From contig JAQXGF010000003.1 in the NCBI GenBank assembly GCA_029006155.1, positions 1 through 64,000 on the forward strand: a stretch of 64,000 nt of DNA. The letters are read 5' to 3'. The DNA is from Lachnospiraceae bacterium (lineage in GTDB: Bacteria; Bacillota; Clostridia; Lachnospirales; Lachnospiraceae). A program made the translations under genes and the position numbers. Below the pieces are notes generated by a model, which was given only the letters and a program-made list of their open reading frames with translations, did not search any database and was not told the DNA's origin. Positions 11,032 to 51,121 of this stretch are shown here, piece after piece. How positions within the stretch are numbered: the first letter of the stretch is position 1; each line of letters starts with the position of its first letter.

Positions 11032-11299
11032 AATCTAAGTATTTCGCAATGACGAGGAAGAGTAGTTGAAGGGAATTCCACAGAGAGCTGCGGATGGTGG
11101 AAGCGCAGCGATGAAGCTTCAGTGAAAATCACCTCTGAGCCTCCGGACTGAAAGGCATCCGCGTAAGTCTGGACGAGTAACAGTCGTTATCCTGTTTCCC
11201 ATTGATCAGATGTGGAGTAGAGTGGCCGTCTATACGGCAAGAAGAGTGGTACCGCAGAGGTTTAGCCTTTGTCTCTTATGTAGAGACAGAGGCTTTTTT
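11032..11299 (+). ncRNA. T-box leader, probably isoleucine-specific
   Basis: The RNA shows the family marks. Stem I elements are AGAGAGCTGCGGATGG with GGTGGAAGCGCAGCG. A specifier-loop-like TGAAAATCACC has ATC at 11128-11130 as the likely codon. The T-box core AGAGTGGTACCGC is at 11243-11255. An 11-bp terminator GCCTTTGTCTC / GAGACAGAGGC followed by TTTTTT lies at 11265-11299. The UGGU bulge pairs with a tRNA ending ACCA, which fits tRNA-Ile (A73). T-boxes normally bind uncharged tRNA and prevent termination. No aminoacyl-tRNA synthetase or amino-acid biosynthesis gene follows; the next gene is a BASS symporter at 11693. The codon call rests on alignment by eye. Confidence 0.85.
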
Positions 11300-50131: not shown

Positions 50132-50319
50132 GGCAGAAGTCCTTTGCTTTCCAGATCTTTTTTGATTAATTCCTTGATGTACACACTTTTTAACTGATTG
50201 GTCTGCTCAATATAAGCGATGAGTCGATTATATTCTTCCATTTCTTTTTCCGTATATTTTAGTCGAACGACCTTGCATTTTTCATTATAGGCTTTCTGAC
50301 TTTCTTTATTATAAGACAT
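50128..50319 (-). CDS. Small probable ribbon-helix-helix DNA-binding protein
   Basis: The 63-residue protein MSYNKESQKAYNEKCK... has a short basic strand (CKVVRLKYTEKEMEEYNRL) followed by two helices (YIEQTN, LKSVYIKELIKKDLESKG). This is the pattern of Arc/MetJ-type ribbon-helix-helix repressors found on mobile elements. GAGGTGA lies upstream of its ATG. It overlaps the AraC gene start by four bases. Two TAGG-N4-CCTA repeats just upstream are candidate self-binding sites. Its base composition is lower in G+C than the AraC gene. Confidence 0.65.
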   Translation of the reverse strand: MSYNKESQKAYNEKCKVVRLKYTEKEMEEYNRLIAYIEQTNQLKSVYIKELIKKDLESKGLLP

Positions 50320-50349
50320 AATTTGTCACCTCATTTTAGAATCTGTTAC

Positions 50350-50391
50350 TAGGAGCACCTATTGACAAATAGGGGCACCTAGCTATATAAT
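50350..50391 (+). promoter_or_regulatory. Rightward promoter bracketed by two TAGG-N4-CCTA operators
   Basis: TTGACA (50362-50367) and TATAAT (50386-50391) are 18 bases apart. TAGGAGCACCTA (50350-50361) and TAGGGGCACCTA (50370-50381) lie on either side of the -35, with 20-base periodicity. A bound repressor dimer pair would block this promoter and sit just upstream of the leftward small gene. Confidence 0.6.
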
Positions 50392-50425
50392 ATGGACATA
50401 AATAGCGCTGTTTATAGATAAAGAC

Positions 50426-50700
50426 AGGGTTTACACCATCAAAAGAAACCGCTATAATGATAATACCATCAGATCAAATATCATTTGTAAAGGCGGTGAG
50501 AAAATGGGAGGTGAGTATATGACGGGTAAAGAGATCGTCAATTTAATCCGTGAACTCCGAAAGAAAGGCATGAGTGATACCGATATACTCAATCTGATTG
50601 AATATGTCGAAACCCATGATCCAAAAGAGGTCTCAGAAACGTAACGAATTCACCCGGTGTAAACTCTATAAAGGTGCAGGCGCCAGCCTGTGCCTTTTTT
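50426..50700 (+). repeat. Small-ORF cassette copy 1 (own promoter, double start, terminator)
   Basis: The copy holds AGGGTTTACACC (50426-50437) containing the -35 TTTACA, then 17 bases to TATAAT (50453-50458), then GTAAAGGCGGTGAGAAA, ATGGGAGGTGA, the small ORF, GTGTAAAC (50657-50664), and a terminator GGTGCAGGC / GCCTGTGCC with T6 (50673-50700). The outer regions are nearly identical to copy 2, while the ORF is not. Confidence 0.8.
50519..50644 (+). CDS. 41-residue protein of unknown function, cassette 1
   Basis: The peptide MTGKEIVNLIRELRKKGMSD... is charged and predicted to form two short helices (residues 3-16 and 20-31), ending ETHDPKEVSET. GGGAGGTGAG lies directly upstream of ATG 50519. 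An in-frame ATG at 50504, preceded by AGGCGGTGAG, would add MGGEY. Promoter and terminator immediately flank the ORF, so it is very likely expressed. I recall similar unnamed small proteins in gut Clostridia, but no function. Confidence 0.7.
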   Translation: MTGKEIVNLIRELRKKGMSDTDILNLIEYVETHDPKEVSET

Positions 50701-50703
50701 CAC

Positions 50704-50715
50704 CGCTATATAGCG
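50704..50715. promoter_or_regulatory. Perfect 12-bp palindrome between cassettes
   Basis: CGCTATATAGCG lies between the first terminator and the second promoter and may be a protein-binding site. Copy 1 has only a diverged TAGCGCTGTTTATAG at the same place. Confidence 0.4.
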
Positions 50716-50721
50716 AAATAC

Positions 50722-51034
50722 AGGGTTTACACCATCATCACAAACCGCTATAATGATAATACCAAGAAGCAAATATTATTAGTAAAGGCGGTGAGAAAAT
50801 GGGAGGTGAAGCGATGTCGCTCGATGAACTCAAGCAGGTCACGATTGATTTTTATGTGAATCTGCAAAGAATCAAAAAAGCGCAAACCGGTGAAAATCCA
50901 GAGCTGAACTACCAGTTGAAAGTCTATGAGAACAAACTTACTGCGCTCGGTATTCCAGCAACGGATTATCAGATGTAACTACTAATTTCGTGTAAACCCT
51001 ATAAAGGTGCAGGCACATCGCCTGTGCCTTTTTT
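50722..51034 (+). repeat. Small-ORF cassette copy 2
   Basis: It has the same order as copy 1: AGGGTTTACACC (50722-50733), TTTACA-17-TATAAT (50726-50754), AGTAAAGGCGGTGAGAAA, ATGGGAGGTGA, a different ORF, GTGTAAACCCT (50990-51000) and terminator GGTGCAGGC / GCCTGTGCC with T6 (51006-51034). The boundary sequences AGGGTTTACAC and GTGTAAACCCT form an 11-bp perfect inverted repeat around the cassette. Confidence 0.8.
50814..50978 (+). CDS. 54-residue protein of unknown function, cassette 2
   Basis: The peptide MSLDELKQVTIDFYVNLQRI... is predicted mostly helical (residues 2-24 and 31-44) and ends IPATDYQM. It does not resemble the cassette 1 peptide. GGGAGGTGAA precedes ATG 50814; an in-frame ATG at 50799 would add MGGEA. 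Promoter, double start and terminator mirror cassette 1. No family recognised. Confidence 0.7.
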   Translation: MSLDELKQVTIDFYVNLQRIKKAQTGENPELNYQLKVYENKLTALGIPATDYQM

Positions 51035-51121
51035 GATATTATAATCCTGTTTTTTGAAGAATGCTACCGGAAATTTTGAAAAGAGGCACAGATCTGAAAA
51101 TTTAAATGCGACAATATCTTG

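Follow-up and report, generated by a model that had tools for sequence, protein, structure and literature searches.

Promoter-gene-terminator cassettes with paired borders and a changing small-protein payload in Lachnospiraceae genomes, two of them in tandem

The phage moron is an autonomous promoter-gene-terminator unit that is added to a genome and lies within prophages; to our knowledge, morons are not defined by a shared family of borders. MITEs are short, multi-copy elements with terminal inverted repeats and no internal transposase, and an integron gene cassette consists of a promoterless gene with an attC site. In the p576/pLS20 clade II plasmids, conserved strong promoters are reported to stand before variable, replaceable genes, and the establishment regulon of p576 is described as having a ribbon-helix-helix repressor, operators beside the -35 box, and ArdC among its genes (PMC8708921). 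Anti-defence genes of archaeal viruses have been found through a shared regulatory sequence that precedes many unrelated small genes (PMC11065993). The AcrIIA22 islands of gut Clostridia contain hypervariable small ORFs at a fixed chromosomal locus and in prophages, and their authors report having found no recombinase (PMC8545432). Plasmid leading regions are reported to carry accessory anti-defence genes, with Frpo promoters that work on folded single strands (PMC11541004). In the present study, we analysed two small units in a window of Lachnospiraceae DNA, the window being the whole stretch of 64,000 nucleotides that was examined. At the level of sequence, the results show a family of predicted promoter-gene-terminator cassettes, each about 300 nucleotides long, whose borders are paired and whose payload changes; two of them lie in the window. 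The open-access literature yielded no description of such cassettes (subscription journals and preprints lying outside the scope of the search), and a literature search with the border letters returned nothing.

Anatomy of the two units

The original prediction had placed two tandem small-ORF units at 50426..51034, each with TTTACA-17-TATAAT and with near-identical flanks. Reading and aligning the sequence recovered both units as described (Table 1), with this promoter in each of them and flank identities of 89% over 56 nt in the promoter block, 95% over 40 nt in the start block, and 96% over 25 nt in the 3' block. The left border of unit 1 reads AGGGTTTACACC (50426-50437), and GTGTAAAC stands at 50657; the 11-bp inverted repeat said to bound the second copy is exact (AGGGTTTACAC at 50722-50732 and GTGTAAACCCT at 50990-51000). 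Two details were revised. The terminator hairpin, described as the same in both units, has a common stem, but its loop differs (GCCA vs ACATC). The small ORFs are different, as predicted, but the proposed lengths of 41 and 54 codons are probably too short: the first ATG after AAAGGCGGTGA (50504 and 50799) fits the family better than the downstream ATGs chosen previously, and the family model R1, introduced below, ends exactly on these two ATGs, so that proteins of 46 and 59 aa, beginning at the family start, are more likely. The start block AAAGGCGGTGAGAAAATGGGAGGTGA is present in exactly two copies in the window and in none of 100 shuffles (up to 3 mismatches allowed), and the border 14-mer GGGTTTACACCATC is present in two copies in the 3.3-Mb genome of origin, with none for the reversed control. 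In both units, the predicted terminator is a separate hairpin that follows the right border and lies outside the inverted repeat. At the curated threshold of Rfam, the window contains only a T-box leader RNA (11040-11279, plus strand, 126 bits), which is distant from the units and unconnected with the cassettes.

Table 1. Features of the two units and their surroundings, in window coordinates
Feature	Position	Strand	Remarks
Ribbon-helix-helix (RHH)-like protein, 63 aa	50128..50319	-	Divergent from the cassettes; overlaps the start of the AraC-type gene by 4 bases
Insertion between AraC-type gene and GH4 gene	50132..51097 (approximate)		AraC-type and GH4 genes adjoin without the insertion in relatives
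Candidate regulator-controlled promoter	50350..50391	+	Reads towards unit 1
Unit 1 left border and predicted sigma-70-type promoter	50426..50458	+	TTTACA 50430-50435, TATAAT 50453-50458
Unit 1 ribosome-binding site and start AAAGGCGGTGAGAAAATG	50489..50506	+	One base off the family consensus AAAGGCGGTGAGAATATG
ORF1, 46 aa	50504..50644	+	41 aa if the second ATG (50519) is used
Unit 1 right border GGTGTAAACTCT	50656..50667	+	Inverse of 50426-50437, 92%
Unit 1 predicted terminator hairpin and T run	50670..50700	+	From sequence and folding
Unit 2 left border and predicted promoter	50722..50754	+	TTTACA 50726-50731, TATAAT 50749-50754
Unit 2 ribosome-binding site and start	50784..50801	+	Start-block match and model R1
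ORF2, 59 aa	50799..50978	+	54 aa if the second ATG (50814) is used
Unit 2 right border GTGTAAACCCT	50990..51000	+	Exact inverse of 50722-50732
Unit 2 predicted terminator hairpin and T run	51003..51034	+	From sequence and folding

Two adjacent sets of near-identical flanks might suggest that a single unit was simply duplicated in tandem in this genome and that one of the ORFs diverged afterwards, and pairing of the same two ORFs wherever the flanks recur had been named as the result that would argue for it. The protein families speak against such an origin. At E 1e-3, 15 of 47 genus genomes were observed to have ORF1 relatives and 18 to have ORF2 relatives, the genome of origin included in both counts, and a scan of one genome for each of 84,980 species revealed ORF2 relatives at 83 places, 80 of which were kept, under titles of mostly Lachnospiraceae, Clostridia, Roseburia, Blautia and Eubacterium, with one Gastranaerophilales and some designated just "bacterium". 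ORF1 and ORF2 are separate families, each with relatives elsewhere that lack the other beside them; among 463 loci, the two occur together only in the window's own region. The same kind of border carries ORF1, ORF2 and other payloads elsewhere, and both payload and copy number vary at single loci, as shown below. Simple duplication was excluded on these grounds, and we assign it next to no probability.

Several observations on the two families may be added. An ORF2 relative lies directly before the replication gene of inovirus PQ006180 (L236, 1966-2139); the notion of ORF2 as mainly an inovirus gene was dropped, as this was the only inovirus and MT836841 appears by eye to be a bacterial chromosome. 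Phage records gave no match to ORF1, and plasmids gave none to ORF2. In G018, an ORF1 relative with an internal TAA stop (L016, L103) is apparently a decayed copy. Several ORF1 or ORF2 units of the genus (L018, L019, L053, L120, L121, L129, L130) lie at most a few hundred bases from contig ends, as repeated sequence would cause.

A dispersed family with common borders

Some ORF2 loci of other genera display the anatomy of the window units in clearer form, even as arrays. The pattern GGCTTTACAC-N15-18-TATAAT was therefore drawn on in a search of 36 genomes picked for holding ORF2 relatives, covering 38 of the 80 ORF2 loci of the species scan, and gave 87 matches in 26 genomes, whereas the reversed pattern gave none. 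A single genome has up to ten matches, a number reached in the isolate Sporofaciens musculi. At 69 of the 85 distinct sites, an ORF of 30-75 codons follows at 60-100 bases, leaving 16 without such an ORF, and GTGTAAAG or a near variant lies within 200 bases after the ORF in 44 of these 69, the other 25 being without a right border. Under a uniform rule applied to loci L116-L376, an ORF was observed at 89 of 115 motif sites and an ORF with right border at 53; the corresponding numbers for 1226 other TATAAT sites were 149 and 18. A small ORF also follows 14 of 26 ordinary promoters with TTGACA and 13 of 37 with another -35 box, and a right border is present in 0 and 2 of these cases, respectively. 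Thus, ordinary promoters often precede small ORFs but rarely a right border, which makes the border the more telling part. The exact motif is rare across 397 family-wide genomes (32 matches in 24 genomes vs 3 for the reversed motif); of 30 sites read from this survey, 17 are followed by a small ORF and 4 coincide with sites of the 36-genome search. L363 and L365 have the appearance of additional payloads that possess a right border, outside the formal grouping. A border scan of IMG/VR returned 87 stretches, 80 of which were kept as loci; an ORF of at most 80 aa follows in 24 of them, and 7 of these 24 are cassettes by payload and right border, L449 and L451 being alike. Most of the genomes compared are drafts or metagenome-assembled.

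Searching with the flanks and listing their contents, as the original prediction had suggested, thus yielded dispersed consensus flanks with several payloads between them. The 68 motif-derived payloads, some of which come from orthologous loci of related genomes and are not independent, fall into groups of 25, 21, 8, 5, 3 and 2 with 4 singles (phmmer, E 1e-8; L326, a spurious low-complexity ORF, was left out of the grouping). Profile comparison links the group of 25 distantly to the ORF2 group (probability 97%); two of the small groups are perhaps related to each other (74%), and the remaining pairs reach at most 4%. ORF1 groups with L270, L298 and L336, which have the same border in three other genomes, and ORF2 groups with 21 others. 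None of the payloads tried against Pfam, NCBIfam, PHROGs and PADLOC reached a curated cut-off or gave a convincing match, and ORF2 has no relative among solved structures (best E 0.24).

The window units were compared with this family using R1, a sequence-only model for which 40 cassettes were taken from other genomes and none from the window. R1 recognises unit 2 at 50712-50801 (E 1.4e-14) and unit 1 at 50411-50506 (E 8.1e-13), the next match in the window having an E of 2.3. The exact flanks of the window match only themselves in their own genome, and 143 relatives gave short weak matches only, in 8 of them (best E 2.4e-4); the exact flanks being found nowhere else among the genomes searched, family membership rests on the profile. 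Both window left borders read GGGTTTACAC instead of the search seed GGCTTTACAC, which has no exact match in G000, the seed itself being non-defining for the family. Together with the R1 profile, the units have the inverse right border and a payload of a shared family; a right border that itself folds as the terminator is absent. By this profile comparison, the two units can be regarded as clear, albeit divergent, members of a cassette family dispersed in Lachnospiraceae. Among 37 other loci, R1 found the border in only 2 (L126, L127), although 29 hold ORF1 or ORF2, and these protein families therefore also occupy other flanks.

The paired borders constitute imperfect terminal inverted repeats, the right one often being a putative terminator hairpin. 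The inverse relation of the two borders extends over as much as about 36 bp, and the match of each left border to its own right border was compared with permuted partners in units with enough flank and no N. For the 47 of 85 pooled cassettes that also had a recognisable right border, this match was 15.85, vs a permuted mean of 12.82 and a maximum of 14.04 in 2000 permutations; in a motif-free test of units found by protein alone (125 of 127), it was 8.72, vs 7.62 and a maximum of 8.09 in 1000, the kinship between cassettes of one genome being not fully removed in either test. Only 15 of the 125 units of the motif-free test are in the top 5% for their own partner, and the own-partner match of the window units was equalled or beaten by 3 of 124 others for unit 2 and by 13 of 124 for unit 1. 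The right border continues as a hairpin with a T run in 39 of 48 cases, and a typical hairpin folds at -9.8 kcal/mol (z -6.0, one case). Conservation drops to background outside the borders, and it is among the highest in the promoter and the ribosome-binding site. As a single-stranded promoter, the left border folds weakly, with z values of -1.4 and -1.9, and the promoter of the window gave a z of -0.9.

Comparison of orthologous loci largely upheld the proposal of an exchangeable cassette with kept flanks and varied payload. At one locus (L328/L335; flanks 81% over 671 and 94% over 700), the promoter is common and the payloads are unrelated, with 63 vs 49 aa, membership in the groups of 25 vs 2, and no profile relation. 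In L292, both borders are intact and the payload is missing, and L342 has a payload at that locus; L276 has a whole cassette and L171 is without it. The number of cassettes, which the original prediction had singled out for comparison between strains, differs between related genomes at one locus, as seen in the array sizes of L341/L339, where L341 has a masked stretch, and of L345/L346. Moreover, two types of flank unrelated to those of the window each lead to ORF1 or ORF2. In one of them, the upstream DNA contains an HTH_26 regulator gene and is followed by ORF1 in three genomes but by ORF2 in another, with an identity of 87.9-89.3% over 354-394 bp (400 compared). The other, a third type of flank when that of the window is counted, precedes ORF1 in G046 and G007 and precedes ORF2 elsewhere in G046 (81-83% over 217 bp). 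A distant relative of the HTH_26 regulator was also observed in two additional genomes, where it precedes a third protein that is common to both. Comparison of genomes thus shows payloads that are exchanged, lost or stacked into arrays within borders that remain similar, and we infer that the cassette is the unit of exchange.

These results bear on two other explanations. First, the cassettes could be miniature transposable elements with cargo, moved in trans by a transposase that acts on their terminal inverted repeats. Imperfect repeats of up to about 36 bp, the scatter of as many as ten copies over a single genome, and the empty sites are consistent with such an element, but target-site duplications are not in excess (1.55 vs 1.79 expected, 29 elements), the outer ends of the repeats are not sharp, and the payload changes while the borders stay, and we consider this explanation unlikely. 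Second, the function might reside in the transcripts themselves, as in a type I toxin-antitoxin pair or an RNA regulator with a defined structure, the ORFs being secondary. The hairpin right borders and the complementarity of 5' and 3' parts would fit this view; however, the proteins are conserved in sequence across genomes, the peptides look by eye charged and not hydrophobic, and Rfam at its curated threshold gives, apart from the distant T-box of the window, only two tRNAs among 20 cassette loci, which leaves a role as RNA improbable. The payload proteins are about 40-70 aa in length and helical by eye. In HTH-linked and related units (L017-L019, L027, L060), the leader sequence GGCAAG is complementary to the terminator loop CTTGCC, and this complementarity, read by eye, suggests a possible 5'-3' contact in the mRNA.

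The insertion and its genetic neighbourhood

The two units of the window lie in an insertion of about 1 kb, the direct neighbours of which are an AraC-type gene and a GH4 gene. These two genes stand side by side without the insertion in L253, L254, L255 and L256. Full GH4 relatives (84-93% identity) are present in six other genomes, four of which are without the RHH gene and the units, and the remaining two have no similar AraC gene at that place. More distant GH4 relatives in the genus (L261, L265-L268) were matched with internal stop codons.

The RHH-like protein encoded in the insertion is present in 1 of 47 genus genomes and is 44-45% identical to proteins on the viral contigs L378 and L436, both of metagenome 3300006217, the genes of which are likewise divergent beside cassettes. 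Pfam assigns no family to the window protein, and RHH_10 to the L436 relative only below the cut-off. In the candidate promoter between this gene and unit 1, two 12-bp TAGGNGCACCTA repeats (50350-50361 and 50370-50381) enclose TTGACA (50362-50367), with TATAAT at 50386-50391; TAGGNGCACCTA has two exact matches in the window, both at this upstream promoter, and none in 100 shuffles. By eye, L378 has a similar promoter, with the -35 box between two 12-bp repeats.

Genes of four types were sought by tblastn in 92 cassette regions (about 1.5 kb per side), where adjoining cassettes share some matches: HTH_26-type and J-domain genes were each observed in 8 regions, RHH-like genes were observed in 4, and ArdC was observed in 3. 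When the 5 regions from which queries had been taken are set aside, the numbers, in this order, become 7, 7, 1 and 2, and in 135 somewhat shorter control stretches they were 1, 1, 0 and 0. J-domain genes are close to cassettes L281, L316, L317, L330, L336 and L350, and several start directly after the terminator. ArdC-type anti-restriction genes lie directly downstream of cassettes L289 (by Pfam), L407 and L449, and ArdC had no match within 1.5 kb of the window units. An integrase-like ORF was noted by eye near L281.

This neighbourhood, together with the precedents of p576 (PMC8708921) and the archaeal viruses (PMC11065993) as they are described, could also be explained by a regulon only, in which unrelated small genes of phages and conjugative elements have a common promoter, leader and terminator for joint switching, the cassette itself would be no unit of exchange, and the shuffling is ordinary recombination of their carriers. 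The position of the promoter and ribosome-binding site among the best conserved parts, and the ArdC, RHH-like, HTH_26 and J-domain genes near some cassettes, argue for this explanation. However, in 71 of the 92 regions no match to any of the four was observed within 1.5 kb, and a regulon by itself leaves unexplained both the paired inverted borders and the payloads that are changed or missing between intact borders at one locus. We therefore regard it as possible but doubtful.

Proposed working and comparison with described systems

Herein, we propose that the cassettes constitute a self-transcribed family of one-gene units that are spread, recombine at their borders, arrived in the window genome in connection with an RHH-like regulator, and work in the manner of an establishment regulon, and we hold this proposal, taken as a whole, to be rather probable. 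First, each cassette consists of a left border that includes the -35 box of a predicted sigma-70-type promoter, a ribosome-binding site of the standard kind, a gene for a small protein, and an inverse right border, which in many members doubles as the putative hairpin terminator. Second, mobile elements would spread the cassettes, through the chromosomes, phages and conjugative elements of Lachnospiraceae, and the replicons that carry them might then recombine at the shared borders. Third, in the window genome, two cassettes may have come with the RHH-like regulator in the insertion of about 1 kb. When such an element enters a cell that is free of the regulator, a burst of small proteins would be made, perhaps against the defences of the host, and, by likeness to plasmid p576, the burst would end when the regulator shuts the upstream promoter. 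The payloads would most likely be establishment or anti-defence proteins of mobile elements, a role suggested by the likeness to the p576 regulon (PMC8708921) and to anti-defence genes defined by their promoter (PMC11065993), as these are reported. A more far-reaching formulation, which we offer only tentatively, is that of a new kind of gene cassette, in which inverted, imperfectly palindromic borders, with the promoter in the left and the terminator in the right, allow small-protein genes to be inserted, swapped, lost and stacked; a pool of such cassettes might be shared by the bacteria, phages and conjugative elements of Lachnospiraceae and recombined at the borders by an enzyme or by way of folded single strands.

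The border sequence can serve as a handle for pulling pools of unannotated small proteins from gut genomes: a search that started from nothing but the border arrived at six groups of payloads plus four singles, and the payloads tried have no match above the cut-off in family libraries. The cassettes are also a concrete candidate for how islands of small genes turn over in gut Clostridia. Should the payloads indeed serve establishment or anti-defence, they would be a ready list of candidates to test.

Among described systems, morons resemble the window units, which have their own predicted promoter and terminator as sequence features. MITEs have in common with the cassette family the terminal inverted repeats, which are short in the window; unlike MITEs, the cassettes are coding, their cargo changes, and no target duplication was seen (29 elements). 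Unlike the promoterless genes of integron cassettes, each window unit has a promoter-like sequence of its own. As in the AcrIIA22 islands described from gut Clostridia, small genes are gained and lost at a fixed locus; the cassettes differ in having a common border and in occurring in other genera, and AcrIIA22 is reported to have a PC4-like fold (PMC8545432). The accessory genes behind recurring special promoters are reminiscent of plasmid leading regions; unlike the Frpo promoters reported there, the left border of the cassettes folds weakly (PMC11541004). As with the anti-defence genes of archaeal viruses, one promoter sequence precedes many unrelated small genes; those genes are described in viral genomes, and paired inverted borders and terminators are features of the cassettes (PMC11065993). 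Compared with p576 as reported, the cassettes also occur singly and scattered over chromosomes, their borders are inverted and their terminator is conserved, and the operator-like repeats of the window stand at the upstream promoter and not at each cassette promoter; the RHH-like gene may be a counterpart of the p576 repressor, and the conserved promoters with changeable genes, repeats of this kind beside a -35 box, and the ArdC genes next to three cassettes are features that the present family has in common with that regulon (PMC8708921).
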